DNA of 64,000 bases from Chaetoderma sp. LZ-2023a. Its lineage: Eukaryota > Mollusca > Caudofoveata > Chaetodermatida > Chaetodermatidae. Shown piece after piece: positions 5,046 through 29,394 of this stretch (within the stretch, counting starts at the first letter, position 1; every line of letters begins with the position of its first letter). Made by a program: the position numbers and the translations under genes. A model generated the notes under the pieces. The model saw nothing but the letters and a program-made list of their open reading frames with translations, made no database searches and was not told the origin of the DNA. The DNA lies in assembly GCA_034401795.1 (NCBI GenBank), contig CM067367.1, forward strand, positions 84,466,314-84,530,313, read 5' to 3'.

Positions 5046-5049
5046 GTCC

Positions 5050-6390: not shown

Positions 6391-6399
6391 TTCACCTCA

Positions 6400-8050: not shown

Positions 8051-9350
8051 GGTGCCAATGAAAGGATCCTCAAGACCATCTACCTAGGTGCCGTACGGCC
8101 ACACCTTGAGTATGGATCCAGCTCATGGATGACAGCAGCTAAATCTCATCAACAGAACCTCGACAGAGTACAAAACCAGGCACTGCGCATCATCACTGGT
8201 GGAATGAAATCAACACCAATAGAAGAAATTGAGCAGACAGCAGGCATCCCCCCACTTAGCAAAGTAAGGGAATGCAAAGCACTGATCCAAGCAGCAAAGT
8301 TCAAATCGTTCAACAACCACCCGATGAAGATCAGGCAAGCACAGCTGTCATCAGGAAGACTTAAAAGATCAAGTTTTGTGAAAGAGACAAAAGCACTTCA
8401 AAGGAAACACCAAGTAATGTTGCCAACACAAATAGAAGACCCAAACCACACACTTGATCCTCCACCCTGGGAAAACAAACTCGAGAGCATAGCTATTCGC
8501 ACCACAGTACCTCATCTCACATCCAAAGATGAACACAGTGATGTGAGAAAGAAGGCCCTGACCCTAGCCATGCTGGAAGAAATGTACCCTCAGGAGACAT
8601 GGATAAGGATCTACACAGATGGATCAGCCAAAGATGCAATTAGGAGCAGAGGTGCTGGACTGCACATACAGTATCCAAACGGACAACATGAGTCAGCTGC
8701 AATACCGACAGGCAAACACTGCACAAACTACAGAGCTGAAGTCGAAGCACTGGTTCATGCAGCTAATACCATCAGCAGATCAGCAGGCCCTATTGCACAG
8801 ATTGTCTTTTTATCTGATGCCCGCTCTGTCCTTGAGGCTATCACCAAAGGGCCACAACTTGAAGAAGCACTACAAACCATCAAATGCTTTCGGATAGCAT
8901 TGCAGTGGATCCCCTCAAACTGTGGAGTCCAAGGAAATGAAGAAGCAGACAAGATGGCAAAGGTGGGTGCAGAAGAGAATCAGACAGAAAACATGGTTAC
9001 CCATACAGAGATGAAGCCTATCATCAAGTCACTCTAGAACACCTCAATCAGAAGATGCCTGCCATCATCTCTCGAGGCCAGAGCAAGTGACCATTTTTTG
9101 TCTCAGAACTGGACACAACAGACTAAACCAAGACATGTACAGGCGGTTCCACCTTACGACATCGCCCGCTTGTCCTTGTGGAGAAGCAGAACAGACCACA
9201 GAGCACATATTTCAATGTTGCAGTACGTATAAGCTGCTGAGCGAAGAGATCTGGCCTTTGTCAACCTCTTTTCTTGGAAAGCTGTATGGGCCTGTGGAAG
9301 ATCTGCAGAAAACCACAGATTTCATCTTGAGAATGGCTCTCCAAGTGTGA
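8051..9350 (+). pseudogene. RNase H and Cys/His tail of the I-like element
   Basis: The frame resumes after the TGA with R-P-H-L-E-Y-G-S and the post-RT linker. RNase H follows at about 8,600-8,970: Y-T-D-G-S-A (Asp), Y-R-A-E-V-E-A-L (Glu), F-L-S-D-A-R-S-V (Asp), P-S-N-C-G-V-Q-G-N-E-E-A-D (Asp; the usual His of S-H-C-G is Asn). After a frameshift near 9,040 comes L-R-T-G-H-x-R-L…C-P-C-G-E-x-E-Q-T-T-E-H-I-F-Q-C-C, the Cys/His tail usual for this group. RNase H placed after RT separates I-type elements from CR1/jockey relatives. Confidence 0.88.
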
Positions 9351-9379
9351 TACCACCGATCGAAAAGAAAAAAGAAGAA

Positions 9380-9394
9380 GATGAACCAATTCTG
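9380..9394. repeat. Target-site duplication, right copy
   Basis: GATGAACCAATTCTG, exact copy of 5,422-5,436, placed directly after the element's A-rich tail. Confidence 0.85.
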
Positions 9395-9466
9395 TATAAA
9401 GAGTTGTAGCGATGATCTAATGGTCTGACATGTGCTCCCATTCTGTACATTCATTCCTCTATTTTT

Positions 9467-9586
9467 TATTTCATTCATTCATTCGTTCGTTCGTTCGTTC
9501 GTTCGTTCGTTCGTTCGTTCGTTCGTTCGTTCGTTCGTTCGTTCGTTCGTTCGTTCGTTCGTTCGTTCATTCATTCATTCATTAAT
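9467..9586 (+). repeat. (ATTC)n/(GTTC)n microsatellite
   Basis: About 30 tetranucleotide units: a few CATT units, a central block of roughly 23 pure GTTC units, then CATT again. The symmetric layout (variant units confined to both edges) fits spread of one T-to-G-type variant through the middle of the array. Confidence 0.95.
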
Positions 9587-9599
9587 TTGTTCATAACAA

Positions 9600-10170
9600 T
9601 CTGTTTGGTCTTATGCCATTTTGTACATTCTGGTCTTATGCCATGGTGTACATTCTTCATCTTTGATATGGTGAGAATTGTGCTACGAGGGTGCTTTTGC
9701 CATGGTGTACATTTGTCGCGCTTTAAGTCGATATGGACATAATCGTGGTAGACAATAATGGTCTACAATGGTGCTTTTGCCATGGTGTATATTCATCGTC
9801 CTTTTGTTGATATGGGCATAATTGTGGTAGACAATAATGGTCTACAATGGTGCTTTTGCCATGGTGTATATTCATCGTCCTTTTGTTGATATGGGCATAA
9901 TTGTGGTAGACAATAATGGTCTACAAAGGTGCTTTTACCACGGTGTACATTCGTCGCCCGTTAGTCGATATGGACAAAATCGTGGTACACAATAATGGTC
10001 TACAATGGTGCTTTTGCCATGGTGTATATTCATCGCCCTTTGGTTGATATGGGCATAATCGTGGTAGACAATAATGGTCTACAAGGGTGCTTTTTCCATG
10101 GTGTACATTCGTTGCCCTTTCTACAAGCATGACAAGGGTGGTTATGCCATGGTGGGCAATCGTCATGTCT
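9600..10170 (+). repeat. 79-bp minisatellite, about five good copies
   Basis: Units start with 'gtgcttttgccatggtgta' near 9,691, 9,771, 9,850, 9,929, 10,008 and 10,087 (last one truncated) and share 'gatatggrcataatcgtggt' and 'agacaataatggtctacaa'. The latter half is a small palindrome (gacaataatggtc). Degenerate pieces extend back to about 9,600. The minus-strand frame across it is a by-product of the repeat. Confidence 0.88.
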
Positions 10171-10249
10171 TTATCATATATTTAGATTACAAACCAATAT
10201 ATAATGTATATATACTTGAGTGCTAATTCTTAGTAATTTCTTGCCAAAC

Positions 10250-10760
10250 AGTAAATATGGTGCAAAACAAAATAAAAAAAGTCGTTGAGGACATCGAGGA
10301 AGCCTAATGAGTCTAAATGACACATACACAAATGCTGCCATGTGCTGTTATCATCTTGATGACAATCAAGAAAAGGGACGATAGCAACTACAAACTGGCG
10401 TTCGAAAACTAACAGCAAAACTTTCTGCAGCAAAATGTGTGCTTAATTTTGTGGCGCGTGATTTATATGATTTACAGGAACAGCTAAATAGCAAGGATAA
10501 AAAAATCAGTGAACTAAATGAAACAGCACTACAAAGAACCTGAACAATTAAAAAACGTGAAGAATCTCAAATTTTTTTGCTTCTGGGAGAGTGGAGCGGT
10601 ATAGAGCCAGCGGGCCCATCAAGTTCGACACAGCTCACCCAAGATCTGCTCGCTGATATGTCTACTGTAGAGCATGCAGGCTCATCAAGTTCGGCACAAC
10701 TCACTCAAAACCTATTAGCTGATATGTCTCCACCAGAGAAAAAAGACAAAACGGAATAGA
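10250..10760 (+). pseudogene. Decayed Lys/Glu-rich coiled-coil ORF of the Helentron
   Basis: Broken frames give K-V-V-E-D-I-E-E-A, then V-A-R-D-L-Y-D-L-Q-E-Q-L-N-S-K-D-K-K-I-S-E-L-N-E, consistent with a coiled coil, then two near-repeats of S-S-S-x-Q-L-T-Q-x-L-L-A-D-M-S. Stops occur at about 10,306 and 10,540. Several Helitron-type elements carry an accessory ORF upstream of Rep; I do not recognise this protein and infer membership from position and strand only. Confidence 0.4.
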
Positions 10761-10924
10761 ATTACAATAATAGTGTTAATAAGTGTTAGATTATTACCAG
10801 TAATATAATTAATATGGGATTACATAAAAATTAAAAATAATTTTCTTAGGTCACCAGTACAAGGCAAGTAGGTAATGTGTTGATGCCATATTTTCTTGGC
10901 ACGCACTTTAAAATACACTACTAT

Positions 10925-11456
10925 GTCTTTTTATACCCTGCCAAAAAATTTGGCATTGTATTATGTAATGGCGCTGTCCGTCCGGCCAGGCGGGCGGGCG
11001 TGAGGGCGGCAGAGTTGTTTCCGGATGATAACTCCGGTACTGTTTGTCGGATCACATTGAAACTTCATAAGGTGATTGGACTAGGTCTTGGGAAGAAACC
11101 TATCGAAATTGACGATGATCCAAAATCCAAGATGGCCACCAGCCACCAGCGGCCATCTTGAAAATTGGTTTCTGGATGATAACTCCGTTACCGTTTATCG
11201 GATCGCTTTGATACTTAATGGAGTGGTTGGACTAGTTCTGGGGAAGAAACCTATCGAAATTGATAATGTTCCAAAATCCAAGATGGCCACCAGCCACTGG
11301 TGGCCATCCTGAAAATTGGTTTCCGGATGATAACTCTGTTACTGTTTATCGGATCGCTTTGAAACTTCATAGAGTGGTTGGACTAAGTCTGGGGATGAAA
11401 CCTATCGATGATGATCCAAAATCCAAAATGGCCGCCAGCCACCGTCGGCCATCTTG
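10925..11456 (+). mobile_element. Pearl/HINE-like element with three 151-bp tandem copies
   Basis: A hairpin start (taccctgccaaaaaatttggca then 'gtattatg') and a GTCC/GGCG run precede three copies of a 151-bp unit; 'tccggatgataact' recurs near 11,020, 11,171 and 11,322. Each unit ends with 'ccaagatggccaccagccac', which pairs with 'gtggccatcttg' as a small inverted repeat. Hairpin, GC-rich run and ~150-bp core match the short non-autonomous elements at 44.7, 46.2 and 61.6 kb, but no 3' terminus was identified. Confidence 0.55.
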
Positions 11457-12740
11457 AATATCCAAGTTCTGTGGAGCGTGAATAAACCAGCTAATCCCAG
11501 CTAATCCAAGCTTTTAATAACTTGGAAAAGCTTGGATTAGCTTGCTGGTATTGGCCACATAAATTCCAAGATAATTCAAGAAATGCCTAGCTAAAGTAAA
11601 GTCCAAGAAAATTCCAGATAGCTGTTACCCACATTCAAAATAATCCAAGCTAGCTTGCCGGTATTGGCCACTTAAAATCCAAGAATTTTCCAGCTAGCTT
11701 GAACATTCAAGAAAATCCAAGCTAGCTTGCACGTTCAAGAAAATCCAAGCCTGCTTGAACGTTCAAGAAAATCCCACCTAGCTTGGATTTTATTCCAGAA
11801 AGTCCCAGCTATCTAGAACTTCAAGAAAATCCCAGCTAATCCTAGCTTTTGATATAGGTTAGCCATTAACATAAAATGTATGCATGTACACATAAATGCT
11901 TCCTCACAGAGATTATATATAAATATATATGCTTAAAAACCAAAATCACCTTCATGGGAGTTGCGCTACTCAATAAGAAATACAGTATCAGCCAGACATT
12001 AGCAATGTATGAGTTTCTGACTGATTTACCATATTATTTAGAAAGTCATCATCACAGCATTAATTACATAGAACTGAAAATGCTATACCAAAACTGGTAA
12101 TTCTGAATAAATCTCTGGAAATCAATAGAATACATACCTCAAAATACCGTTCTGTTTCCATTTAAGGTTACTGATGCTAAGCATTTTGTCTAACAGTACT
12201 GTCAGTGTTTCCAAACTATCATATTCTATATATCCATAGCTGGTAATGATCAATGCAATGAATGTACTGTTTGCTTTTTTACAAAGACTAAATTTCCCAC
12301 CAATTTACCAGGTCACGGTCACCTCTTGTCATGACTATACAGAACCTGTTCTTGCCTTAGTGCAAACTATTTCAAGATAATCCACGGTACAGTAGTGTAA
12401 GTGAGTCTACAAATTCAAGGATATTCAAGTAGCTTGGATTCTTTTATATCTGACAAAACAAAGTCCTAGAAAATCCAAGCTAGCTTGAATTCTGTCGCAT
12501 CCGAAAGGTGCAAGCAAATCCATGAAGCTTGCACTTTTTCATTATGATATTCCAAAAGTCCTAGAAAATCCCAGCTAGCTTGAATTCTGAGAGGGGGATT
12601 TTCAAGAAGTTCAACCAAATATATAAAGTCCAAGCTAATTCAAGGAAATCCAAGCTGGTATGGGTTGAATAATTTTCTAATAGCTTGGATATTCAAGAAA
12701 ATCCAAGCTAATTCAAGTTAACTTGAAATTTATTTCACAC
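11457..12740. repeat. Dispersed-in-cluster AAGCTAGCTT palindromic repeat
   Basis: Two blocks (about 11,460-11,850 and 12,415-12,735) are built from variants of 'tcaagaaaatccaagctagc' plus 'ttgaa', with core CAAGCTAGCTTG a perfect dyad. At least a dozen degenerate copies occur with irregular spacing and variants CCCAGCTAG/CTAATCC. Between the blocks, 11,860-12,410 is ordinary AT-rich DNA with no recognised feature. Confidence 0.7.
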
Positions 12741-12759
12741 GGGTGGTAACAGAGGAGCT

Positions 12760-13455
12760 CACATCTACAATGGCAATATCTTCACTTGTGATCAGTGTCG
12801 GAGAATATTCAAAACTAAAAGAGGCATTCAGAATCACCTATGTCATATCTGCACCAGCTGCAAAACAGTCTTTATCACAACACAGAGATTAAGCAACGAC
12901 AAATGTAAAGGGATATTTTCATGTTGACAGCAAAATCGAATTTACATCCAAACAAAGATTACAATGCCATAAATGTCACGGGTGCCCAAATCGTTCTGTG
13001 ATTTTTAGTACGTTTCAAAAGATACAAGCACACAGGAGTGGACATAAAAAGCAGGAAATGAAGTCTGCTAACATCCATAAATCACAGAAAGGTGAAACTA
13101 AAGCATCTAGTATTACCAAGGGAGACCAGCTGAGTAATTCAATTAACCACCAAAGAAATGAGCACATTCCTAATGCTAAACCACCTTATCCTACAACAAG
13201 TGACAAGCAAGAGAAATTTAGCAATAGCCAAAAAGCTGAACAAATTTCCACTGATAAATCAATGAATGATGCAGCAGGTATTACCATTAAACTGGCTCAG
13301 CAAATTCGCTATCATTTTCATCCAACAGATCTAGCTTGGCAAATGATGAAAACTTCTATGCTTCAGTTGGCAGCAGATGGTCTCGCAATACCGGCAAACA
13401 TTAGGACCAGGGAATCACATATTGGTTACCCAAATAAGATAAAGATGACAGGAGC
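12760..13455 (+). pseudogene. C2H2-like zinc-finger part of the Helentron ORF
   Basis: Reads F-T-C-D-Q-C-R-R-I-F-K-T-K-R-G-I-Q-N-H-L-C-H (CxxC-x12-HxxxH-like), then C-T-S-C-K and, after a frameshift near 12,915, C-H-K-C-H…H-R-S-G-H, followed by a Lys/Ser/Gln-rich linker and K-L-A-Q-Q-I-R-Y-H-F. Multiple Cys/His pairs upstream of an OTU domain are a common layout in Helitron proteins. Likely nucleic-acid binding in a living copy; here it is frameshifted. The open part is 12,998-13,462. Confidence 0.65.
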
Positions 13456-13840
13456 TGATTAAAATTGCTTCTTCAGATCCATATCATATGTCATTACTAG
13501 AAGTGAACGCTATCACACTCACATAAGAGAGCTACTTTTGAACCACATGTGTAGATTAGGTAACAGAATGACACCAGTGCATCCAGATGATATGTCTGTG
13601 AATCGGTATATTGTGAATAACAAACTGGATAAAAATGGATCATGGGCATCACATCAATTTTTGCAGCAGCACATCTACTTAAGACAGATATTTATGTCTA
13701 CTCTCCCTGTGAGTCATCATATAACTGGTTGAAACATTTGGCCACTTTCTTCAGGAAGATGTTGAAATAGAAACATCAGCAATATATTTGCAACCCACAA
13801 ATGACAATGATTATGATGTTGTAACATCTACATCAAATAT
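13456..13840 (+). pseudogene. OTU-type cysteine protease domain, catalytically dead
   Basis: The OTU start motif D-G-N-C-F-F reads D-stop-N-C-F-F-R-S-I-S here (TAA in place of the Gly codon). The fold continues through H-T-H-I-R-E-L-L-L-N-H-M and G-S-W-A-S-H…A-H-like I-Y-L-R-Q. After a frameshift near 13,720 it reads F-L-Q-E-D-V-E-I-E and ends Y-L-Q-P-T-N-D-N-D-Y-D-V, where OTU proteins normally have N-H-Y: the catalytic His is Asp. OTU domains occur in many animal and plant Helitron proteins. Both a stop and a lost catalytic residue exclude activity. Confidence 0.72.
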
Positions 13841-16800
13841 ATTAACTACACCTATTGATATAATGCACATGAAGTTGTTGCAAGATTCTTCAACTCATGT
13901 TGACCTTCTCAGTGAAATAGCTAGACAAATCGAACTTAACAAAAGAAAGAAAGCAAGTATGGAGACCCCAGAATACAGAGAACATAGAAAAATCAATAAA
14001 ACAGAAACAGGCATATTTTCGTATTCTAAACATCATTGTTCAGAGCAAGTAAAAGAATCCATACAAGAGAAGGGGAAAGATCCAGTCTTTAGACAGAAAG
14101 AAAATGTGCACAGACTAGAGAGAAATTATCCAGAGTATAAGGAGAAAGAATGGATCCAAAGTGAAGTGGAGCAAAAGCACAATGTAAGAGAGCAAGACAA
14201 GAAACGAAAACAGGGGAGGAGAAAGGATCTTGATTTTCTAGAGAACGAAAAGAATCAGAGAAAATACAAGACAAAAGATATAGAATTTAGAGAGAAGGAA
14301 AAGGAACAAAAGCAACTGAGGAGGAAAGATCAAGTATTTAAAGACAAGGAAAAGGAACAAAAGCAACTGAAGAGGAAAGATCAAGCATTTAAAGACAAGG
14401 AAAAGGAAAAAAAGCAATTGAGGAGGAAAGACCAAGTATTTAAAGAGAAGGAAAAGGAACAAAGGCAACTGAGGAGGAAAGACCAAGTATTTAAAGAGAA
14501 GGAAAAGGAACAAAGGCAACTGAGGAGGAAAGATAAATCATTTAAAGAGAAGGAAAAGGAACAAAAGCAACTGAAGAGGAAAGGTCAATCATTTAAAGAG
14601 AAGGAAAAGGAACAAAGGCAACTGAGGAGGAAAGATCAAGCATTTAAAGAGAAGGAAAAGGAACAAAAGCAACTGAGGAGGAAAGACCAAGCATTTAAAG
14701 AGAAGGAAAAGGAACAAAAGCAACTGAGGAGGAAAGACCAAGCATTTAAAGAGAAGGAAAAGGAACAAAAGCAACTGAGGATGAAAGATCAAGCATTTAA
14801 AGAGAAGGAAAAGGAACAAAAGCAACTGAGGAGGAAAGATCAAGCATTTAAAGAGCAGGAAAAGGAACAAAAGCAACTGAGGAGGAAAGACCAAGTATTT
14901 AAAGAGAAGGAAAAGGAACAAAAGCAACTGAGGAAGAAAGACCAAGTATTTAAAGAGAAGGAAAAGGAACAAAAGCAACTGAGGTGGAAAGATCAAGCAT
15001 TTAAAGAGAAGGAAAAGGAACAAAGGCAACTGAGGAGGAAAGATCAAGCATTTAAAGAGAAGGAAAAGGAACAAAAGCAACTGAGGAGGAAAGATCAATC
15101 ATTTAAAGAGAAGGAAAAGGAACAAAAGCAACTGAGGAGGAAAGACCAAGTATTTAAAGAGAAGGAAAAGGAACAAAGGCAACTGAGGAGGAAAGATAAA
15201 TCATTTAAAGAGAAGGAAAAGGAACAAAAGCAACTGAAGAGGAAAGGTCAATCATTTAAAGAGAAGGAAAAGGAACAAAGGCAACTGAGGAGGAAAGATC
15301 AAGCATTTAAAGAGAAGGAAAAGGAACAAAAGCAACTGAGGAGGAAAGACCAAGCATTTAAAGAGAAGGAAAAGGAACAAAAGCAACTGAGGAGGAAAGA
15401 CCAAGCATTTAAAGAGAAGGAAAATGAACAAAAGCAACTGAGGAGGAAAGATCAAGCATTTAAAGAGAAGGAAAAGGAACAAAAGCAACTGAGGAGGAAA
15501 GATCAAGCATTTAAAGAGAAGGAAAAGGAACAAAAGCAACTGAGGAGGAAAGACCAAGTATTTAAAGAGAAGGAAAAGGAACAAAAGCAACTGAGGAAGA
15601 AAGACCAAGTATTTAAAGAGAAGGAAAAGGAACAAAAGCAACTGAGGTGGAAAGATCAAGCATTTAAAGAGAAGGAAAAGGAACAAAGGCAACTGAGGAG
15701 GAAAGATCAAGCATTTAAAGAGAAGGAAAAGGAACAAAAGCAACTGAGGAGGAAAGATCAATCATTTAAAGAGAAGGAAAAGGAACAAAAGCAACTGAGG
15801 AGGAAAGACCAAGTATTTAAAGAGAAGGAAAAGGAACAAAAGCAACTGAGGTGGAAAGATCAAGCATTTAAAGAGAAGGAAAAGGAACAAAGGCAACTGA
15901 GGAGGAAAGATCAAGCATTTAAAGAGAAGGAAAAGGAACAAAAGCAACTGAGGAGGAAAGACCAAGTATTTAAAGAGAAGGAAAAGGAACAAAAGCAACT
16001 GAGGAGGAAAGATCAAGCATTTAAAGAGAAGGAAAAGGAACAAAAGCAACTGAGGAAGAAAGACCAAGTATTTAAAGAGAAGGAAAAGGAACAAAAGCAA
16101 CTGAGGTGGAAAGATCAAGCATTTAAAGAGAAGGAAAAGGAACAAAAGCAACTGAGGAGGAAAGATCAAGCATTTAAAGAGAAGGAAAAGGAACAAAAGC
16201 AACTGAGGAGGAAAGACCAAGCATTTAAAGAGAAGGAAAAGGAACAAAGGCAACTGAGGAGGAAAGATCAAGCATTTAAAGAGAAGGAAAAGGAACAAAG
16301 GCAACTGAGGAGGAAAGATCAAGCATTTAAAGAGAAGGAAAAGGAACAAAAGCATCTGAGGAGGAAAGATCAAGCATTTAAAGAGAAGGAAAAGGAACAA
16401 AAGCAACTGAGGAGGAAAGATCAAGCATTTAATGAGAAGGAAAAGGAACAAAGGCAACTGAGGAGGAAAGATCAAGCATTTAAAGAGAAGGAAAAGGAAC
16501 AAAAGCAACTGAGGAGGAAAGATCAAGCATTTAAAGAGAAGGAAAAGGAACAAAAGCAACTGAGGAGGAAAGATCAAGCATTTAAAGAGAAGGAAAAGGA
16601 ACAAAAGCAACTGAGGAGGAAAGATCAAGCATTTAAAGAGAAGGAAAAGGAACAAAAGCAACTGAGGAGGAAAGATCAAGCATTTAAAGAGAAGGAAAAG
16701 GAACAAAAGCAACTGAGGAGGAAAGACCAAGCATTTAAAGAGAAGGAAAAGGAACAAAAGCAACTGAGGAGGAAAGATCAAGCATTTAAAGAGAAGGAAA

Positions 16801-19800
16801 AGGAACAAAGGCAACTGAGGAAGAAAGATCAAGCATTTAAAGAGAAGGAAAAGGAACAAAGGCAACTGAGGAGGAAAGATCAAGCATTTAAAGAGAAGGA
16901 AAAGGAACAAAGGCAACTGAGGAAGAAAGATCAAGCATTTAAAGAGAAGGAAAAGGAACAAAAGCAACTGAGGAGGAAAGATCAAGCATTTAAAGAGAAG
17001 GAAAAGGAACAAAAGCAACTGAGGAAGAAAGATCAAGTATTTAAAGAGAAGGAAAAGGAACAAAGGCAACTGAGGAGGAAAGATCAAGCATTTAAAGAGA
17101 AGGAAAAGGAACAAAAGCAACTGAGGAGGAAAGATCAAGCATTTAAAGAGAAGGAAAAGGAACAAAGGCAACTGAGGAGGAAAGATCAAGCATTTAAAGA
17201 GAAGGAAAAGGAACAAAAGCAGCTGAGGAGGAAAGATCAAGCATTTAAAGAGAAGGAAAAGGAACAAAAGCAACTGAGGAGGAAAGATCAAGCATTTAAA
17301 GAGAAGGAAAAGGAACAAAGGCAACTGAGGAGGAAAGATCAAGCATTTAAAGAGAAGGAAAAGGAACAAAAGCAACTGAGGAGGAAAGATCAAGCATTTA
17401 AAGAGAAGGAAAAGGAACAAAAGCAACTGAGGAAGAAAGATCAAGTATTTAAAGAGAAGGAAAAGGAACAAAAGCAACTGAGGAGGAAAGATCAAGCATT
17501 TAAAGAGAAGGAAAAGGAACAAAAGCAACTGAGGAGGAAAGACCAAGTATTTAAAGAGAAGGAAAAGGAACAAAAGCAACTGAGGTGGAAAGATCAAGCA
17601 TTTAAAGAGAAGGAAAAGGAACAAAGGCAACTGAGGAGGAAAGATCAAGCATTTAAAGAGAAGGAAAAGGAACAAAAGCAACTGAGGAGGAAAGATCAAG
17701 CATTTAAAGAGAAGGAAAAGGAACAAAAGCAACTGAGGAGGAAAGATCAAGCATTTAAAGAGAAGGAAAAGGAACAAAAGCAACTGAGGAGGAAAGACCA
17801 AGTATTTAAAGAGAAGGAAAAGGAACAAAAGCAACTGAGGTGGAAAGATCAAGCATTTAAAGAGAAGGAAAAGGAACAAAGGCAACTGAGGAGGAAAGAT
17901 CAAGCATTTAAAGAGAAGGAAAAGGAACAAAAGCAACTGAGGAGGAAAGATCAAGCATTTAAAGAGAAGGAAAAGGAACAAAAGCAACTGAGGAGGAAAG
18001 ACCAAGTATTTAAAGAGAAGGAAAAGGAACAAAAGCAACTGAGGAGGAAAGATCAAGCATTTAAAGAGAAGGAAAAGGAACAAAAGCAACTGAGGAGGAA
18101 AGATCAAGCATTTAAAGAGAAGGAAAAGGAACAAAGGCAACTGAGGAGGAAAGATCAAGCATTTAAAGAGAAGGAAAAGGAACAAAAGCATCTGAGGAGG
18201 AAAGACCAAGCATTTAAAGAGAAGGAAAAGGAACAAAAGCAACTGAGGAGGAAAGACCAAGTATTTAAAGAGAAGGAAAAGGAACAAAGGCAACTGAGGA
18301 GGAAAGATAAATCATTTAAAGAGAAGGAAAAGGAACAAAAGCAACTGAGGAGGAAAGATCAAGTATTTAAAGAGAAGGAAAAGGAACAAAAGCAACTGAG
18401 GAGGAAAGATCAAGCATTTAAAGAGAAGGAAAAGGAACAAAGGCAACTGAGGAGGAAAGATCAATCATTTAAAGAGAAGGAAAAGGAACAAAAGCAACTG
18501 AGGAAGAAAGACCAAGTATTTAAAGAGAAGGAAAAGGAACAAAAGCAACTGAGGTGGAAAGATCAAGCATTTAAAGAGAAGGAAAAGGAACAAAAGCAAC
18601 TGAGGAGGAAAGACCAAGTATTTAAAGAGAAGGAAAAGGAACAAAGGCAACTGAGGAGGAAAGATAAATCATTTAAAGAGAAGGAAAAGGAACAAAAGCA
18701 ACTGAGGAAGAAAGACCAAGTATTTAAAGAGAAGGAAAAGGAACAAAAGCAACTGAGGTGGAAAGATCAAGCATTTAAAGAGAAGGAAAAGGAACAAAGG
18801 CAACTGAGGAGGAAAGATCAAGCATTTAAAGAGAAGGAAAAGGAACAAAAGCAACTGAGGAGGAAAGACCAAGTATTTAAAGAGAAGGAAAAGGAACAAA
18901 AGCAACTGAGGAGGAAAGACCAAGCATTTAAAGAGAAGGAAAAGGAACAAAGGCAACTGAGGAGGAAAGACCAAGTATTTAAAGAGAAGGAAAAGGAACA
19001 AAAGCAACTGAGAAGGAAAGACCAAGTATTTAAAGAGAAGGAAAAGGAACAAAAGCAACTGAGGTGGAAAGATCAAGCATTTAAAGAGAAGGAAAAGGAA
19101 CAAAAGCAACTGAGGAGGAAAGATCAAGCATTTAAAGAGAAGGAAAAGGAACAAAAGCAACTGAGGAGGAAAGATCAAGCATTTAAAGAGAAGGAAAAGG
19201 AACAAAAGCAACTGAGGAGGAAAGATCAAGCATTTAAAGAGAAGGAAAAGGAACAAAAGCAACTGAGGAGGAAAGACCAAGTATTTAAAGAGAAGGAAAA
19301 GGAACAAAAGCAACTGAGGAGGAAAGATCAAGCATTTAAAGAGAAGGAAAAGGAACAAAAGCAACTGAGGAAGAAAGATCAAGCATTTAAAGAGAAGGAA
19401 AAGGAACAAAGGCAACTGAGGAGGAAAGATCAAGCATTTAAAGAGAAGGAAAAGGAACAAAAGCAACTGAGGAGGAAAGATCAAGCATTTAAAGAGAAGG
19501 AAAAGGAACAAAAGCAACTGAGGAGGAAAGATCAAGCATTTAAAGAGAAGGAAAAGGAACAAAAGCAACTGAGGAGGAAAGATCAAGCATTTAAAGAGAA
19601 GGAAAAGGAACAAAAGCAACTGAGGAGGAAAGATCAAGCATTTAAAGAGAAGGAAAAGGAACAAAAGCAACTGAGGAAGAAAGATCAAGTATTTAAAGAG
19701 AAGGAAAAGGAACAAAAGCAACTGAGGAGGAAAGATCAAGCATTTAAAGAGAAGGAAAAGGAACAAAGGCAACTGAGGAGGAAAGATCAAGCATTTAAAG

Positions 19801-21356
19801 AGAAGGAAAAGGAACAAAAGCAACTGAGGAGGAAAGATCAAGCATTTAAAGAGAAGGAAAAGGAACAAAAGCAACTGAGGAGGAAAGATCAAGCATTTAA
19901 AGAGAAGGAAAAGGAACAAAAGCAACTGAGGAGGAAAGATCAAGCATTTAAAGAGAAGGAAAAGGAACAAAAGCAACTGAGGAAGAAAGATCAAGCATTT
20001 AAAGAGAAGGAAAAGGAACAAAAGCAACTGAGGAGGAAAGATCAAGCATTTAAAGAGAAGGAAAAGGAACAAAAGCAACTGAGGAGGAAAGATCAAGCAT
20101 TTAAAGAGAAGGAAAAGGAACAAAAGCAACTGAGGAGGAAAGATCAAGCATTTAAAGAGAAGGAAAAGGAACAAAAGCAACTGAGGAGGAAAGATCAAGC
20201 ATTTAAAGAGAAGGAAAAGGAACAAAAGCAACTGAAGAAGAAAGATCAAGTATTTAAAGAGAAGGAAAAGGAACAAAAGCAACTGAGGAGGAAAGATCAA
20301 GCATTTAAAGAGAAGGAAAAGGAACAAAGGCAACTGAGGAGGAAAGATCAAGCATTTAAAGAGAAGGAAAAGGAACAAAAGCAACTGAGGAGGAAAGATC
20401 AAGCATTTAAAGAGAAGGAAAAGGAACAAAAGCAACTGAGGAGGAAAGATCAAGCATTTAAAGAGAAGGAAAAGGAACAAAAGCAACTGAGGAGGAAAGA
20501 TCAAGCATTTAAAGAGAAGGAAAAGGAACAAAAGCAACTGAGGAAGAAAGATCAAGCATTTAAAGAGAAGGAAAAGGAACAAAGGCAACTGAGGAGGAAA
20601 GATCAAGCATTTAAAGAGAAGGAAAAGGAACAAAAGCAACTGAGGAGGAAAGATCAAGCATTTAAAGAGAAGGAAAAGGAACAAAAGCAACTGAGAAGGA
20701 AAGACCAAGCATTTAAAGAGAAGGAAAAGGAACAAAGGCAACTGAGGAGGAAAGATCAAGCATTTAAAGAGAAGGAAAAGGAACAAAGGCAACTGAGGAG
20801 GAAAGATCAAGCATTTAAAGAGAAGGAAAAGGAACAAAGGCAACTGAGGAGGAAAGACCAAGCATTTAAAGAGAAGGAAAAGGAACAAAGGCAACTGAGG
20901 AGGAAAGATCAAGCATTTAAAGAGAAGGAAAAGGAACAAAAGCAACTGAGGAGGAAAGATCAAGCATTTAAAGAGAAGGAAAAGGAACAAAGGCAACTGA
21001 GGAGGAAAGATCAAGCATTTAAAGAGAAGGAAAAGGAACAAAAGCAACTGAGGAGGAAAGATCAAGCATTTAAAGAGAAGGAAAAGGAACAAAAGCAACT
21101 GAGGAGGAAAGATCAAGCATTTAAAGAGAAGGAAAAGGAACAAAAGCAACTGAGGAGGAAAGATCAAGCATTTAAAGAGAAGGAAAAGGAACAAAAGCAA
21201 CTGAGGAGGAAAGATCAAGTATTTAAAGAGAAGGAAAAGGAACAAAAGCAACTGAGGAGGAAAGATCAAGCATTTAAAGAGAAGGAAAAGGAACAAAAGC
21301 AACTGAGAAGGAAAGACCAAGCATTTAAAGAGAAGGAAAAGGAACAAAAAAGATGA
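13743..21356 (+). CDS. Helentron ORF segment made of 138 17-residue Lys/Glu repeats
   Basis: Open without interruption from the OTU C-terminus (F-L-Q-E-D-V-E-I-E) to TGA at 21,354. It has about 165 residues of non-repeat lead (with P-E-Y-R-E-H-R and P-E-Y-K-E-K-E, the ancestral-looking form of the motif), then 138 complete copies of FKEKEKEQKQLRRKDQA and a partial copy, then K-R-stop. The repeat is extremely charged and would form a very long helix or coiled coil. Short runs of related 'P-E-x-R-E-K-E' repeats are familiar between OTU and Rep regions of Helitron proteins; 138 near-identical copies are not. No ATG start is needed: the frame continues from upstream, and a start at 13,788 would be TTG. 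Whether it is expressed is unknown; neighbours on both sides are pseudogenised. Confidence 0.7.
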   Translation, partial: HFLQEDVEIETSAIYLQPTNDNDYDVVTSTSNILTTPIDIMHMKLLQDSSTHVDLLSEIARQIELNKRKKASMETPEYREHRKINKTETGIFSYSKHHCSEQVKESIQEKGKDPVFRQKENVHRLERNYPEYKEKEWIQSEVEQKHNVREQDKKRKQGRRKDLDFLENEKNQRKYKTKDIEFREKEKEQKQLRRKDQVFKDKEKEQKQLKRKDQAFKDKEKEKKQLRRKDQVFKEKEKEQRQLRRKDQVFKEKEKEQRQLRRKDKSFKEKEKEQKQLKRKGQSFKEKEKEQRQLRRKDQAFKEKEKEQKQLRRKDQAFKEKEKEQKQLRRKDQAFKEKEKEQKQLRMKDQAFKEKEKEQKQLRRKDQAFKEQEKEQKQLRRKDQVFKEKEKEQKQLRKKDQVFKEKEKEQKQLRWKDQAFKEKEKEQRQLRRKDQAFKEKEKEQKQLRRKDQSFKEKEKEQKQLRRKDQVFKEKEKEQRQLRRKDKSFKEKEKEQKQLKRKGQSFKEKEKEQRQLRRKDQAFKEKEKEQKQLRRKDQAFKEKEKEQKQLRRKDQAFKEKENEQKQLRRKDQAFKEKEKEQKQLRRKDQAFKEKEKEQKQLRRKDQVFKEKEKEQKQLRKKDQVFKEKEKEQKQLRWKDQAFKEKEKEQRQLRRKDQAFKEKEKEQKQLRRKDQSFKEKEKEQKQLRRKDQVFKEKEKEQKQLRWKDQAFKEKEKEQRQLRRKDQAFKEKEKEQKQLRRKDQVFKEKEKEQKQLRRKDQAFKEKEKEQKQLRKKDQVFKEKEKEQKQLRWKDQAFKEKEKEQKQLRRKDQAFKEKEKEQKQLRRKDQAFKEKEKEQRQLRRKDQAFKEKEKEQRQLRRKDQAFKEKEKEQKHLRRKDQAFKEKEKEQKQLRRKDQAFNEKEKEQRQLRRKDQAFKEKEKEQKQLRRKDQAFKEKEKEQKQLRRKDQAFKEKEKEQKQLRRKDQAFKEKEKEQKQLRRKDQAFKEKEKEQKQLRRKDQAFKEKEKEQKQLRRKDQAFKEKEKEQRQLRKKDQAFKEKEKEQRQLRRKDQAFKEKEKEQRQLRKKDQAFKEKEKEQKQLRRKDQAFKEKEKEQKQLRKKDQVFKEKEKEQRQLRRKDQAFKEKEKEQKQLRRKDQAFKEKEKEQRQLRRKDQAFKEKEKEQKQLRRKDQAFKEKEKEQKQLRRKDQAFKEKEKEQRQLRRKDQAFKEKEKEQKQLRRKDQAFKEKEKEQKQLRKKDQVFKEKEKEQKQLRRKDQAFKEKEKEQKQLRRKDQVFKEKEKEQKQLRWKDQAFKEKEKEQRQLRRKDQAFKEKEKEQKQLRRKDQAFKEKEKEQKQLRRKDQAFKEKEKEQKQLRRKDQVFKEKEKEQKQLRWKDQAFKEKEKEQRQLRRKDQAFKEKEKEQKQLRRKDQAFKEKEKEQKQLRRKDQVFKEKEKEQKQLRRKDQAFKEKEKEQKQLRRKDQAFKEKEKEQRQLRRKDQAFKEKEKEQKHLRRKDQAFKEKEKEQKQLRRKDQVFKEKEKEQRQLRRKDKSFKEKEKEQKQLRRKDQVFKEKEKEQKQLRRKDQAFKEKEKEQRQLRRKDQSFKEKEKEQKQLRKKDQVFKEKEKEQKQLRWKDQAFKEKEKEQKQLRRKDQVFKEKEKEQRQLRRKDKSFKEKEKEQKQLRKKDQVFKEKEKEQKQLRWKDQAFKEKEKEQRQLRRKDQAFKEKEKEQKQLRRKDQVFKEKEKEQKQLRRKDQAFKEKEKEQRQLRRKDQVFKEKEKEQKQLRRKDQVFKEKEKEQKQLRWKDQAFKEKEKEQKQLRRKDQAFKEKEKEQKQLRRKDQAFKEKEKEQKQLRRKDQAFKEKEKEQKQLRRKDQVFKEKEKEQKQLRRKDQAFKEKEKEQKQLRKKDQAFKEKEKEQRQLRRKDQAFKEKEKEQKQLRRKDQAFKEKEKEQKQLRRKDQAFKEKEKEQKQLRRKDQAFKEKEKEQKQLRRKDQAFKEKEKEQKQLRKKDQVFKEKEKEQKQLRRKDQAFKEKEKEQRQLRRKDQAFKEKEKEQKQLRRKDQAFKEKEKEQKQLRRKDQAFKEKEKEQKQLRRKDQAFKEKEKEQKQLRKKDQAFKEKEKEQKQLRRKDQAFKEKEKEQKQLRRKDQAFKEKEKEQKQLRRKDQAFKEKEKEQKQLRRKDQAFKEKEKEQKQLKKKDQVFKEKEKEQKQLRRKDQAFKEKEKEQRQLRRKDQAFKEKEKEQKQLRRKDQAFKEKEKEQKQLRRKDQAFKEKEKEQKQLRRKDQAFKEKEKEQKQLRKKDQAFKEKEKEQRQLRRKDQAFKEKEKEQKQLRRKDQAFKEKEKEQKQLRRKDQAFKEKEKEQRQLRRKDQAFKEKEKEQRQLRRKDQAFKEKEKEQRQLRRKDQAFKEKEKEQRQLRRKDQAFKEKEKEQKQLRRKDQAFKEKEKEQRQLRRKDQAFKEKEKEQKQLRRKDQAFKEKEKEQKQLRRKDQAFKEKEKEQKQLRRKDQAFKEKEKEQKQLRRKDQVFKEKEKEQKQLRRKDQAFKEKEKEQKQLRRKDQAFKEKEKEQKR
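14286..21353 (+). repeat. 51-bp tandem array, 138 complete units plus a partial one
   Basis: First unit begins at the TTT codon at 14,286 and the last partial unit at 21,324; the difference, 7,038 bp, is exactly 138 x 51, so there is no net insertion or deletion. Variation is confined to a few positions: AAG/AGG (K/R) in E-Q-K-Q, AGG/AAG/TGG/ATG (R/K/W/M) in L-R-R-K, GAT/GAC in K-D-Q, and GCA/GTA/TCA (A/V/S) at the unit end. The + strand is almost pure purine. The first three units are the most diverged, the rest nearly uniform. Confidence 0.97.
14490..15763 (+). repeat. Higher-order repeat: 13-unit block (663 bp) duplicated
   Basis: A rare pair of units (K-D-K-S then L-K-R-K-G-Q-S) at about 14,530-14,600 recurs 663 bp (13 units) later at 15,193-15,263. 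The run up to R-K-K-D-Q-V, R-W-K-D-Q-A and Q-S is repeated in the same order with few differences. Two minus-strand frames of identical length end at 14,589 and 15,252, the same 663-bp offset. Confidence 0.85.
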
Positions 21357-22470
21357 TAATATAAAAGAATATGAAAGAACATATAAGCAAAAGCAGCGCA
21401 ATGATGCATCATTTTGTAATATAGAAGAACAGCGAAACAAGCCAAACAAAGAGGCATTTATAGTACAACACAACTATAAAGCAGTAGAAAGTGGGCCAGA
21501 GTACATATGTACTTCTTGTGATCAGCTGTGATATAGACATTAAGTTTCAATAGCTAATAGAACTATGATTACGGATACAAGCTTTAAAGAGAAAGTCATT
21601 ACTGGTGTTCATAGTGTAAATGGAAAGGAATGGGTATGCAGTACTTGTCAAAATTATATTTGGAAGAAACTATCTAAAGCTAATGGCATAATTTTCCTAA
21701 ATGAATTAGAAATATCAAATCTTGAGGAAAGATTAAGTTGTTGCTCCTCGTATTCCAATCATGCAATTACATGAATTACCAAGAGGTGGTCAAATAAGTT
21801 TGCATGGCAATATGGTGAATGTCCCAACAAACGTCAATACGACAATAACATCCTGATTGCTTACCACGCAAACATGATGATGCTGCATGTAAAATTAAAG
21901 AGAATAATGGCTTATCAAAGCAATTACCTTTATCAAAATATATGACCAAACAAAGTAATAGATGGTGTAAAATGGTTGTTGATGAATAGCACACTTTTTC
22001 AGCAAGAAGGAATTAAACTTGATACAGAGTGGCATTATGATCATATAAATACAGATGAAAATAATGATGGGCAGACAGATGATATGAGAAGCAATCAATC
22101 CCCTGAAGAGGCTGAAAAATCTAATGTTTATTGTTGGGATGAAACCAAGCAGGAAGATCTGCCAGCAAGAACATTTGATACAATGCTTCAGTCTCAGGAT
22201 CTGTTAGAAGAATCTAGAGATATTTTGACTTTGGCACCTGGAGAAGGAGCTACTCCTATGAGTATATGTCTAGACAAGCACTCAGAATCTTTATCTTTTC
22301 CTACAATTTACTGTGGCCAAGAACAGGCAGATGACAAAAATCGAGCTATTACAGTGCACTACAGTGAGCTCTGCAAATCAGAACTAAGGAGTTCTGATCG
22401 ACGCTTAGCAGGACACATTCCCAACTTGTTTTATACGGTAAAGAAATTGCAAATGAAACATTTTAGATAA
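21357..22470 (+). pseudogene. DUF6570-like and pre-Rep region of the Helentron protein
   Basis: Fragments in changing frames: Y-I-C-T-S-C-D-Q-L, V-N-G-K-E-W-V-C-S-T-C (paired CxxC motifs), A-N-G-I-I-F…L-E-I-S-N-L-E-E-R-L, then R-G-G-Q-I-S-L-H-G-N-M-V-N-V-P. From 21,976 one open frame runs to I-L-T-L-A-P-G-E-G-A-T-P, F-P-T-I-Y-C-G-Q and V-H-Y-S-E-L-C-K-S-E-L-R. The order CxxC…A-N-G…E-E-R-L…R-G-G-Q…A-P-G-E-G…F-P-T is characteristic of the region before the Helitron-like N domain. Stops and frameshifts between 21,530 and 21,975. Confidence 0.75.
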
Positions 22471-22477
22471 AGCAAGT

Positions 22478-23780
22478 ATGTGTTTGAGAACAACCAAAAG
22501 CATGAATGAATATACAGCTGGATTTCTTAAATCAAAGGATAACATTAGGAAAATTGTTCAAATTGACGATGGCTACAAAATATGTAAGGATTTAAGAGGT
22601 TCTCCACCTTATTGGGAAAAAGTTAAGAAGGACATCTTTTCTATGATCCATCAGCTTGGTGTTCCTACATGGTTTGCCTCATTCTCTTCGGCAGATACAA
22701 AATACTATTTCCACAGTGCTTTTGAATACATCAAATCCAGTGGGGAAAATTATTGACTACTTCTATAAGATTGAGTTCCAGATGCGAGGCTCTTCCCATG
22801 TACACATGCTTTTATAAGCTGAGGATGCACCAAAAATTGATGATGAAAATGGAGAGAGTAATCGCATAGTTACAGAGTACATTGACAAATATGTTACATG
22901 TGAGTATTCTAAAGAATTAAAAGATCTAGTCTCAAGATAACAACATTCTCACTCAAGATGAAACATTCTCACTCAAGATGATGCAAAAGTATCTCCTTGC
23001 AATTAGAACATCAGTTCAAAGTAGAAAGGTGTTCCTTAAATGAGATCTGAATGCGATAAGAACTAATAATTAGAATTCTTTGCTTTTGGAATGTTGGAGA
23101 GCCAACATGGACTTTCAATTTATAATAGATGCTTACTCTTGTGCGATGTATATTGTCAATTGTATATTGAAATCCCAAAAGGGCATGTCCAGTCTTCTTT
23201 TTCATGCATGTGAAGAAGCAAAACAAGGAAATACAGATTTGAAGCAACAGGTTAAATTCATTGGGAACAAGTTTTTGAACATGTTGAAATTTCTGCGGAA
23301 GAAGCTGTATATTTGATTATGCAGCTCTCCTTACACAAATCTTCACGTGATGTTGTTTTTGTGAACACGGCCCCACCTGACCAAAGGACATTAATGTTGA
23401 AACGTTTCACAATCCTGCATGCATTACCCGATCACTCTACCGATATAGCTGCACACAGTGTTATTGACTATTATGCAGATAGACCGCATCAGCTTCAAGA
23501 TCTTTGTCTCGCTGATTACGTTTCAAAATATACCAGGAAAAAATCTAGGACAAATAAGTATACTGAGTTTGAACGCAAGTGTGATGAAGACGATATGGAT
23601 ATTGAAGATAAGCATGATGTAGATCAAGTAATGTTTAATGCAGGGATGGAATATGTATTAGTGAAGAGAAAACAACCCAGAGTGATTCGATATGTGAAAT
23701 ATAATATGGACCGTGATAAAGAAAACCATTATAGAGGAATTCTAATGTTATTTCATCCATGGAAACAAGAACATAGTTAA
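22478..23780 (+). pseudogene. Helitron Rep (HUH endonuclease) domain, broken
   Basis: 22,478-22,756: [37 protein letters not shown], the Helitron-like N domain. About 22,775-22,810: [13 protein letters not shown], the HUH metal-binding motif, followed by a stop. About 23,100-23,180: D-A-Y-S-C-A-M-Y-I-V-N-C-I-L-K-S-Q-K-G; the usual pair Y-I-V-N-Y of the two-tyrosine site reads Y-I-V-N-C, so the second Tyr is lost. About 23,285-23,560: E-A-V-Y-L-I-M-Q…S-S-R-D-V-V-F-V-N-T and L-P-D-H-S-T-D-I, L-Q-D-L-C-L-A-D-Y-V-S-K-Y. Rep would nick and join single-stranded DNA in rolling-circle transposition. At least three frameshifts and several stops. Confidence 0.88.
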
Positions 23781-24100
23781 TTGGCAGCTGCCACTCATAT
23801 TATGAGAGCTATGCCCAAATGCCAGGCGAAGAAAAAAACAGAAGTGCTACATGTACATAATATGGAATATTACAGCTATAATTGAGAACACCTTGATGAA
23901 ATAATGCAGCAAGTCAGTCATCTCTCAGAACATGATATGGAAGATCAATGGGATAGTGTTGGCCCAAACACTCAGCACACAGAATCAGAAGATAAAAATG
24001 CAGAGGTTCTCGTGTCCTCAGAATTTTCTTCCTACATTCCTCTTGAACACAATAATATTGATTCAGTGGAGATAGATACAAACACTGGGCATTAAAGGTG
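23781..24100 (+). pseudogene. Acidic linker between Rep and helicase
   Basis: Frames read M-R-A-M-P-K-C-Q-A-K-like sequence, then 23,904-24,095 with H-D-M-E-D-Q-W-D-S and many Asp/Glu/Ser. Such acidic spacers between Rep and helicase are usual in Helitron proteins. No fold recognised. Confidence 0.45.
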
Positions 24101-24345
24101 ATAGTTGTCAGATGACGGAACATGTCAGTCAGATGAAGAATGATTGTGATTATTATAAGTTGGTCCAAGTGCTAAATAAAAACCAGAGACAGTTTTTTTA
24201 TTGTATACAGAGTTTTATTTAAAAAAAAAAGGCAAATCTGGAGCCCTTTCATGTATTCCTTACAGGGGGTGCCAGTGTTGGAAAGACAGCAGTTTTAAAT
24301 GCTGTCTATCAAATGCTTATCAGAGAGTTAAAGATGTTGTGAGGA
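24101..24345 (+). pseudogene. PIF1-like helicase, N-terminal part with Walker A
   Basis: At about 24,240-24,330 one frame gives P-F-H-V-F-L-T-G-G-A-S-V-G-K-T-A-V-L-N-A: the Walker A box of PIF1/RRM3-type helicases that follow Rep in Helitrons. A TGA and loss of homology come just after I-R-E-L-K-M-L. The rest of the helicase resumes at 28,074, so a 3.6-3.7 kb insertion splits the gene. The helicase would unwind DNA during rolling-circle transposition. Confidence 0.85.
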
Positions 24346-24878
24346 CTAGATACCCGATCGCTCTGATTAACTTGACAATCATAATACAGATTCTCCTTTA
24401 CTAGAAGAACAAAATGCTTTTTAAATTTTTATAATCGGCCCAGCCAAAGCTGAGATAAGCATATAGCAACCACCTTGACAACCAAACGTCTTTAGCTATT
24501 GAGCTAGAGTTGTGACGTCACACCGCGATAACACCAATTCCTATTAGTCTAGATTATTATTTAAGGGAGCATAGCTAGGCTCTCTACTGCTGCGCGTATT
24601 AGGCACCTATGCACCTATTCTTTGACAATTTACTGTTCACACAGGCACACTACATTGTTCGAGATGCAAAAAGGTTCAATAATATCGAAGATGATGATAT
24701 TTTTGTTGATTAAACTTAAAGGACAGACGTCATGGTCACGGTGCCTGACATCACAATTCTAACGTATAGGCCTGTTAGAGGTGACAGTAACATCAGATTT
24801 CGTGTACGTGAATTAGACTATATTTAATCAAACCCACCCACACACTTCTTGGAATACAATTCTACAAATGCATATATA

Positions 24879-26535
24879 CACCTGTGCAAAAGTTAAGCAC
24901 CAGCAAAAACAATAGAACGTAGAAACATGATGGTACAACTAGGCTGCCATACTTTTTGTCCCCGCGTTAGCTGACATAATTCCAAGTACGAAATGCACAT
25001 GCATGCATGACTTCACGCCGCTTGATGTCCGTGCGTGGCGGGAAACAGCACACGTGTTCAGTTATGTAAAGGTCCAGTTTGAGGTGTAGAACATTACATA
25101 CAGATTTAGGCGACAAGATTAGGAATTTTGTGTTCATGACCGTGGTTTATGTGTACAGAGAGAATTAGCTCTTTATTGTGAACCGCTATGGCAAGACGAA
25201 GGTTAAGTGATCGTGTGAAATGGCAAATCATAGGCATGCATACCACTGGTATGTCATGCAGATAGATTGGCAGACAGCTGAACATTAACCATACTGTAAT
25301 CAGTCGTTTGATTGCAAAACATGGGCAAACTAACGAGGTGAAGGACAGGCCTAGATCTGGAAGACCGAAGAAGACTACTGCCCGTGATGATCGAGCCCTA
25401 GTACGCCTTGTTAGGAGATCTCCATTCACCAACAGCAGAGTGCTCAGCCAGCAATGGGAAACGCGCAATAGAGTGTCAATGTCTACCGTCAAAAGGAGAC
25501 TGTATGCTGCTGGCATGAAAGCTAGGAGACCTGTCAGACGTCCTCTCCTCACTGCACACCACAAAGAGGAGCGTCTGAGGTGGTGCAACGAAAGAAGACA
25601 CTGGAACATGAGATCCTGGAGACGGGTACACTGGTCCGATGAAAGTCGGTTCCTGCTTCATGCCACAGATGGTCGAACTCGTGTATGGAGGTCCAGACGC
25701 ACGGCGTACGACCAACGTAACATCATGGAAGAAGTTCCATTTGGTGGAGGTTCCGTTATGATATGGGGGTGCATCTCATTTGGTTGTAAGCTGGATCTGT
25801 TGACTGTACCTGGAACACTAAATGGACAAAGATATCAAGATTCCATACTGGATAGAGTTGTGGTCCCTCATTTTGTAAATCATGCACCTGGAACCCACCC
25901 TATATTCATGGATGACAACGCCCGACCACATCGTGCTAAAGCTGTGCATGAATACCTCCGCCAGAATGCCATCGAAACCCTACCATGGCCAGCAAGGAGC
26001 CCTGACATGAACCCTATTGAGCATATCTGGGACATTCTGGGAAACATGGTGAGAAGGAGGGATCCTCCTGTGCAGAACCTACAGGAATTAACAGACGCAC
26101 TCCATCTTGAATGGCAACGAATACCACAATGGCGTATCAGTCGGTTGGTGACCAGCATGAGACGTCGTGTCCAGGCCGTCATCCAGGCACAAGGTGGATA
26201 TACCCGGTATTAATAATGACAGTCTCAAACTCGTGCACAGATGTTAAACTTCGTTTTCAGACACCATTAATGACAATCTAGCCACGTGTGTCAACTGTAG
26301 GGCAATAGTTGTCAGTTGTGTCAACGTACCCATATTCAGGCCTCGTTTTCAAGTTCAAACAAAAACATACAGTGTTTCCCCACCATCATAATCAGCATTC
26401 CTCTAGTTGCATTATTACCTCTTGCACTAAGATGGATGGGTACATAAATGTTTATGCTATTGCTTTCTTCATAGCACATGAATATACCCTCGCATGTGCG
26501 TAAAAATAGGGTGGTGCTTAACTTTTGCACAGGTG
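24879..26535 (+). mobile_element. Tc1-family transposon, nearly intact
   Basis: A perfect 24-bp terminal inverted repeat starting CACCTGTGCAAAAGTTAAGC lies at 24,879 and, reversed, ends at 26,535; both are flanked by TA, the Tc1/mariner target. The 1,657-bp length and single transposase gene fit the family. Sharp ends and only one disabling change in the gene show it is much younger than the Helentron around it. Confidence 0.95.
25188..26213 (+). pseudogene. Tc1 transposase (DD34E) with one in-frame stop
   Basis: From ATG at 25,188 (M-A-R-R-R-L-S-D-R-V-K-W) to TAA at 26,211 the frame has 341 codons, normal for Tc1, with a single TAG at 25,263 in the first helix-turn-helix (M-S-C-R-stop-I-G-R-Q-L). 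Paired-type HTH domains come first, then G-R-P-K-K as AT-hook-like linker. Catalytic residues are visible: H-W-S-D-E-S-R-F (Asp1), I-F-M-D-D-N-A-R-P-H (Asp2) and S-P-D-M-N-P-I-E-H-I-W-D (Glu), with 34 residues between Asp2 and Glu. The stop would prevent a full product unless translation restarts downstream at 25,308, which would lack the first DNA-binding helix. Confidence 0.93.
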
Positions 26536-29310: not shown

Positions 29311-29394
29311 TGAACAGAACATTACGCTATGTCAAGCAGTTAAAGATGAAATGAACGATTACAAAAGCATATGAATCTGGTTCCAGACTTTCCT

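Follow-up and report, generated by a model that had tools for sequence, protein, structure and literature searches.

A tandem array of 51-bp units lies inside a decayed Helentron transposable element on the forward strand of the window, by which we mean the whole stretch of 64,000 nucleotides from Chaetoderma sp. LZ-2023a contig CM067367.1 that was analysed (Table 1). The 5′ limit of the element was placed where homology with the sister copies C12b, C4 and C7 begins, and the boundary there is T-rich (TTTTT) in the window and in all three of these copies. The 3′ limit was placed where homology with C12b ends and rests on that one copy. The subterminal inverted repeats stand 5 nt from the 5′ end and 31 nt from the 3′ homology limit, which is near, and not inside, the spacings of 2-4 and 38-60 given for Helentrons in the relevant section of PMC4067079.

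Table 1. Features of the decayed element and its array, in positions of the window.
Feature	Position	Strand	Basis or remark
Whole decayed Helentron copy, 5′ end TTTTTAGCTC...	4965..31165 (about)	+	26.2 kb long with the array and both nested insertions counted in; sister-copy homology
5′ subterminal inverted repeat AGCTCGCCTGTT	4970..4981	+	Perfect 12-bp inverted match to 31123-31134
Nested LINE-like insertion with RNase H domain	5437..9379	+	Homology gap against sister copies; PF00075 in 8051-9034, E 1.3e-11
79-bp non-coding tandem repeat, 5′ part of element	9683..10120	+	TRF, 5.5 copies; also in C11b, C12a, C7
OTU-like protease remnant	12893..13732	+	Open pieces; stop near 13460, frame change before 13725
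Linker in the frame of the array, degenerate repeat-like peptides	13725..14273	+	Open for 183 codons in the window
51-bp tandem array	14274..21350	+	138 complete units and a partial one
First unit, ancestral 5′ edge	14274..14324	+	Variants common to first units at 9/12 array loci
3′ junction: last ancestral unit and spacer missing, then stop	21350..21356	+	Comparison with 7 other copies
CxxC/DUF6570-like region, Rep (Helitron_like_N), helicase start	21354..24332	+	Frame fragments with stops
Nested insertion with Tc1/mariner-type transposase ORF	24333..28090	.	Absent from sister copies
PIF1-like helicase, remainder	28222..29307	+	Frame fragments
C-terminal endonuclease (Exo_endo_phos)	29401..30045	+	PF03372, 25.3 bits against a gathering score of 24.5, E 1.5e-5
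3′ subterminal inverted repeat AACAGGCGAGCT	31123..31134	-	Pairs with 4970-4981

An OTU-like protease is present in many Helentrons and absent from others. Upstream of the array, tblastn weakly matched the OTU-like remnant with the OTU domain of the related protein P0003 (at 389-503 by Pfam), at 29.7% over 91 columns with E 5e-4 and a single stop; the separate pieces of the remnant had no Pfam match, and neither did the linker or the two pieces right after the array. Downstream, the Rep domain was recognized as PF14214 at 22647-22814 (E 1.2e-8, 35.9 bits against a cut-off of 28.9), with a second match at 22457-22753 (E 7.2e-6), and the DUF6570 region by alignment to P0003 and P0007, not by a Pfam match. 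The helicase matched PF05970 at 28222-28464 (E 7.7e-10, 39.2 bits against 25.9) and aligned with P0012 in tblastn over 28186-29046, across four stops; Pfam found nothing in the helicase pieces 28468-28812 and 28882-29307. The endonuclease sits, in broken frames, downstream of the helicase pieces, to which it would be fused in an intact Helentron. An endonuclease in this C-terminal position is the domain behind the name Helentron. By the definition in PMC4067079, an AP-type endonuclease is fused C-terminal to the helicase, and the predicted domain set of the element matches the Helentron plan as outlined in sections of that paper and of PMC6431247. An Rfam search of the window gave no match.

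To judge from its reading frames, the element's coding flanks are dead on both sides of the array, since a stop lies directly behind the array and tblastn with P0001, P0003, P0007 and P0012 crossed frame changes and stops between 21445 and 24324, in addition to the stop in the OTU remnant. An earlier sequence-only reading had placed the array in the frame of a Helentron OTU-Rep protein. The assignment to a Helentron holds through the Rep, helicase and endonuclease domains and the subterminal repeats, and that to an OTU part holds weakly, but the frame is not continuous with OTU upstream and Rep downstream: the OTU part meets a stop and a frame change before the linker, and the array runs into a 3′ deletion and then a stop.

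Two nested insertions interrupt the element. One short stretch recurs at either edge of the LINE-like insertion and looks by eye like a target-site duplication of roughly 15 bp; a TTCG microsatellite (9470-9580) lies about 90 bp past the end of the insertion. The second insertion has inverted-repeat-like ends, again by eye, and its transposase ORF (25308-26210, 301 codons without a stop) matched PF01498 (E 1.6e-17) and PF13358 (E 3.7e-12). Further tandem repeats occur in or near the non-coding parts of the element, namely the 79-bp repeat of Table 1, one of about 38 bp at 30210-30548 and one of 151 bp at 11017-11458, each of which is also present in the fetched stretch of at least one sister copy; the Helentron seems to hold several arrays.

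The array and its counterparts in the genome

TRF reported the array at 14274-21349 (period 51, 138.7 copies, 96% matches, 0% indels). Reading unit by unit gave 138 complete units at 14274-21311 and a partial one to about 21350, with neither an indel nor an in-register stop, so that the 138 uninterrupted 51-bp units first described are borne out in the assembly, with slightly shifted coordinates. Thirty distinct unit sequences occur, 53 of the 138 units equal the consensus, and mean identity to the consensus is 97.8%. The frame of the array is open from stop to stop over 13725-21356, and its plus strand is 80% purine. The consensus unit, KDQAFKEKEKEQKQLRR, corresponds to 17 residues, seven of them basic and four acidic, which makes the array peptide net basic and not the balanced Lys/Glu repeat that had been described. 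A regular higher-order repeat of 11 or 13 units was considered and rejected, as the window array shows a degree of lag-13 signal and a single block of 6 units at lag 11 but no regular order above that of the unit.

The loci that share the first-unit variants counted in Table 1 are C9 (the window), C11b, C11a, C4, C7, C935, C12c, C14b and C14. The last unit and the spacer behind it are kept, with small changes, in all seven other copies shown and are absent at the window locus, the loss of which accounts for the stop directly behind the array. Both ancestral edges are still attached in several copies, and the shared first-unit variants, together with the retained last unit and spacer, indicate that all the arrays go back to a single ancestral array of the element.

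The window locus is not alone in carrying this array. A search of the 2.44-Gb genome with the OTU-side flank yielded at least 15 distinct OTU-side copies, grouped from 20 matches (copy counts are lower bounds), and nine of these 15 carry at least 50 units at the same place, which gives the long head-to-tail arrays at several loci that are expected of satellite DNA. Counted with partial and degenerate edge units, the large arrays hold 139 units at C9 (the window), 158 at C11b, 157 at C11a, 53 at C4, 54 at C12a, 193 at C12c, 264 at C14b, about 427 at C9b and 944 at C12b (47,922 bp). Small arrays were found at C7 (12 units, in a fetched stretch that holds 500 N), C935 (16 units) and C14 (two full units), and none in the fetched stretches of C15, C13 and C7b; C7 and C7b may be duplicates of one another, given their low private rates. 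Left out of the array count were C2203 (a second contig matching C935), C17:74.1M and C7:8.03M, the last of which shows, over 10 kb upstream, nothing of the array but a trace at the far end of the stretch. Between the 48-kb array of C12b (C12:130338730-130386651) and a 13-unit piece upstream of it lie 7 kb of other DNA, and this 13-unit 5′ fragment contains no stop and no frameshift. In total the arrays amount to 122 kb. A shared array length in most relatives' Helentrons, which the earlier reading had said would make the array an ordinary family feature, was found in part: long arrays are common among this genome's copies, but their lengths differ widely, from 2 to 944 units.

Growth and age of the arrays

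Units differ on average by 2.65 per pair within a locus and by 3.24 between loci, and in a balanced sample of 40 units per locus the between-locus excess of 0.575 compares with a maximum of 0.038 in 500 permutations. The longest exact repeats measure 193 to 2,248 bp inside one array and at most 273 bp between loci. Several variants are largely private to one locus: a G to A change at position 39 is present in 85% of units at C12a and at most 4% elsewhere, and an A to G change at position 38 in 25% of window units and at most 1% elsewhere. At C11a (C11:76512433-76519657), a 9-bp in-frame deletion in 52% of units has produced a mixed 51/42-bp satellite; units with the same deletion make up 10% at C11b and about 6% at C14b. 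Overall, units resemble those of their own locus more than those of other loci, which argues that the arrays grew largely in place. This is the pattern of concerted evolution within arrays, with three loci that are diverse internally: the within-locus difference at C12b (3.85) exceeds its difference from seven of the eight other loci, and the diversity within C11b and C12c is also above some between-locus values. A C to T change at position 40 is common to these three loci, and a position 44 variant to C12c and C12b. The diversity of the three loci and their shared position 40 variant suggest that some ancestral variation or exchange remains.

The flanks of the window array carry private substitutions at 2.2-2.6% per site. 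When arrays were simulated at this rate without turnover, a mean of 98-105 distinct variants (lowest 78) and 11-13 stops (lowest 2) accumulated; the window array has 22 and none. In all, it has 153 substitutions from the consensus, near the 155-179 expected at the flank rate, and these are made up of few types, each repeated, so it is the low variety alone that speaks for recent turnover. From this pattern, we take the units of the window array to be much younger than the insertion and its flanks.

Repeats in related proteins and coding capacity

Two protein searches returned 128 relatives (12 in one, the best 120 of 1,311 in the other), from which nine without the CxxC motif were set aside. 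Among the matches listed, 81 of the 119 that were kept have a clear tandem repeat upstream of CxxC, as the earlier reading had expected of related proteins, and 38 have none. The period is 18 residues in 63 of the 81, with a median of 6.5 and a maximum of 16.9 copies; a best period of 17, the length of the window unit, occurs in 0 of 81. Within the 12-relative set, P0003, P0007, P0008, P0009, P0011 and P0012 have a clear repeat, and P0001, P0002, P0004, P0005, P0006 and P0010 do not. On these alignments, a tandem repeat is a frequent predicted part of such proteins, with a lineage-specific sequence.

The Helentron OTU-Rep proteins of fishes, chiton, abalone, hagfish and others that we compared (P0003, P0007, P0008, P0009, P0011, P0012, P0013, P0016, P0024, P0027 and P0059) resemble the window family in having a repeat upstream of CxxC, a unit that is Lys/Arg-rich by eye and units that are alike within each protein. 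They differ in holding at most 16.9 copies, mostly of 18 residues and of other sequences, against 138 copies of 17 residues. Many Helentron Rep proteins of different animals (P0003, P0012, P0013, P0016, P0027, P0059 and others) keep, in a fixed position, a homogenised repeat whose unit is mostly 18 residues long. The earlier reading had called the expansion extraordinary; among the matches listed, 138 or more units are far beyond the range of these proteins.

Each of the eight other large arrays contains between 3 and 259 in-register stops and between 6 and 72 frameshifting indels, and each still has both kinds when edge units are trimmed. Stops number 59 at C11b, 13 at C11a, 21 at C4, 3 at C12a, 18 at C12c, 5 at C14b, 259 at C12b and 47 in the first 264 of the approximately 427 units at C9b, the part of that array to which all unit alignments and the stop, variant and locus-similarity counts refer. 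Stop variants have spread through several arrays, at position 19 in 37% of units at C4, position 40 in 16% at C12b, positions 34 and 40 in 20% and 19% at C11b and position 22 in 15% at C9b. Such homogenised stop variants are hard to reconcile with a frame that matters. Lack of stops was rejected as evidence of coding, both by the low unit variety in the window and by C11b, where the longest open frame is 134 aa in sense and 2,478 aa in antisense; a unit without stops in some frame gives rise to long open frames by itself.

Substitution tests gave no sign of purifying selection on the frame of the array or the linker. The unit variant types in the window comprise 4 synonymous, 18 nonsynonymous and 0 stop changes, small numbers that are near the neutral expectation, and the private changes of the linker comprise 12 nonsynonymous and 2 synonymous ones, again small numbers, where 22% synonymous were expected. 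The linker frame is open in the window only; all 13 sister copies whose linker could be aligned, some of them in part, have one or more stops in it. The window holds the sole large array of nine without a stop or indel, and its stop-plus-frameshift types number 0 against 3.1 expected from the other loci pooled (Fisher p 0.089), a difference that is not significant; some weak coding constraint may still act on the window array. We read the window's open frame as the probable result of chance and recent homogenisation. With stops and frameshifts in the eight others, and the window array open yet apparently unconstrained, the arrays have the properties of non-coding DNA.

Origin and significance of the arrays

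We favour, with a probability of about 0.86, the reading that the array is satellite DNA that grew from the coding minisatellite of a Helentron, and the 7-kb array of the window appears to be a mid-sized example of this satellite rather than a giant protein. A protein-derived satellite born inside a transposon had been one of the two possibilities raised by the sequence-only reading, and it is the one supported here. The history would begin with the short tandem run, mostly of 18-residue units, that Helentron proteins of this group are observed often to carry just upstream of CxxC/DUF6570. The small C935 array, which keeps both ancestral edges, suggests that the family in this genome goes back to an ancestor with a run of 17-residue units; their number, perhaps 10-15, is a guess. 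Copies of the element inserted and then decayed, as is seen in their remains. Once the limit set by the reading frame was gone, blocks of units may have been duplicated locally by unequal exchange, slippage or fork repair, and the arrays would have grown from a few units to as many as 944, for the most part separately at each locus, as the homogenised locus-private variants and the long exact repeats within, not between, loci suggest. The strand, with its 80% purine, may be prone to fork stalling and to expansion. The low variety of the window units suggests that the window array lacks stops because its present units descend recently from a few stop-free ones.

The other possibility raised was a translated helix of several hundred nm. 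Translation into a basic helix of about 2,460 residues, whether as the protein of a live Helentron or from a domesticated gene of the host, is in our view very improbable. It would account for the open frame and for the unique freedom of the window array from stops among the nine large ones, and a 13-unit stretch was modelled by AlphaFold2, from a single sequence without alignment, as two long helices with a mean pLDDT of 87.5. The model indicates what the peptide might do if made and is not proof of its making, and against translation stand the broken OTU and Rep parts on either side of the array, the preponderance of nonsynonymous changes in the linker, the near-neutral make-up of the unit variants, the stops in the sister arrays and the equally long antisense control frame. 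A protein search with the array ORF, of a kind that is weak for low-complexity repeats, also gave no match at E 0.001 among 7,970 scored candidates.

The time of expansion also has to be considered. The arrays could already have been long in the copies that moved, having expanded either ahead of transposition or, by rolling-circle replication, in its course. Rolling-circle replication of Helitrons has been proposed to tandemise internal parts, as stated in a section of PMC12628747, and the variants shared at positions 40 and 44, together with the presence of the C11a deletion at C11b and C14b, count in its favour. The homogenised private variants, the confinement of long exact repeats to single loci (the longest block shared between loci is 273 bp) and a variety in the window array that is too low for the age of its flanks point the other way, and we regard this course of events as unlikely. 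An array length invented or inflated by the assembly is in our view very improbable. Near-identical units are a classic place for such errors, and the N-containing stretch at C7 is a reminder of them, but the window contains no N, and the same array occurs at several separate loci with ordered locus-specific variants and, in many, with element flanks on both sides.

Growth of a satellite from the internal repeat of an element has precedents. Satellites derived from short internal arrays of transposable elements are known from the 3′UTR arrays of Ogre elements in Lathyrus (PMC7004042), and the central repeats of Helitrons and Helentrons have been described as a satellite source (PMC12628747, PMC9659126, PMC7492417, PMC8268682). 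As in the Ogre satellites and the Drosophila DINE-TR1 central repeats (cited in PMC9659126), a short internal array of a dispersed element has become a long satellite at some loci. In the portions of these papers that bear on the matter, the Ogre and DINE-TR1 seeds are non-coding (a 3′UTR, or the central repeats of non-autonomous elements), whereas the seed of the window family lies in a protein-coding part, and the arrays examined here sit inside element copies. The oyster Cg_HINE and Helentron central repeats (PMC7492417, PMC8268682) likewise combine the Helentron superfamily with satellite-like tandem repeats; Cg_HINE, as described there, are non-autonomous elements with central repeats, which in one of these elements average about 6 monomers (PMC8268682), whereas here the repeat belongs to a coding part and reaches 944 units. 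Some satellites similar to coding parts of elements are on record (PMC9659126, PMC12628747, in the passages concerned). Among the papers listed in searches of the open-licence literature, we found no account of a Helentron coding repeat as a satellite seed.

The birth of satellites is usually inferred from end products. Here, a single genome presents the growth of one seed in one element at many stages, with no array, two units, 12-16, about 50, 139-264, about 427 and 944, and the arrays amount to a replicated natural experiment on array growth after coding limits are lifted. They also serve as a warning that very long open frames for a "repeat protein" in genomes can be satellites. We tentatively suggest, at somewhat less than even odds, that the coding repeat acts as a built-in satellite seed: most of the Helentron proteins of this group that were examined keep a self-homogenising repeat in one set position, rolling-circle transposition would scatter it, and dead copies, in which the frame would cease to restrict its length, could independently grow satellites from it. 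If this holds in general, new satellites would commonly arise from dead Helentrons, in molluscs and fishes as well as in other hosts, and the satellite unit could be read as a fossil peptide.
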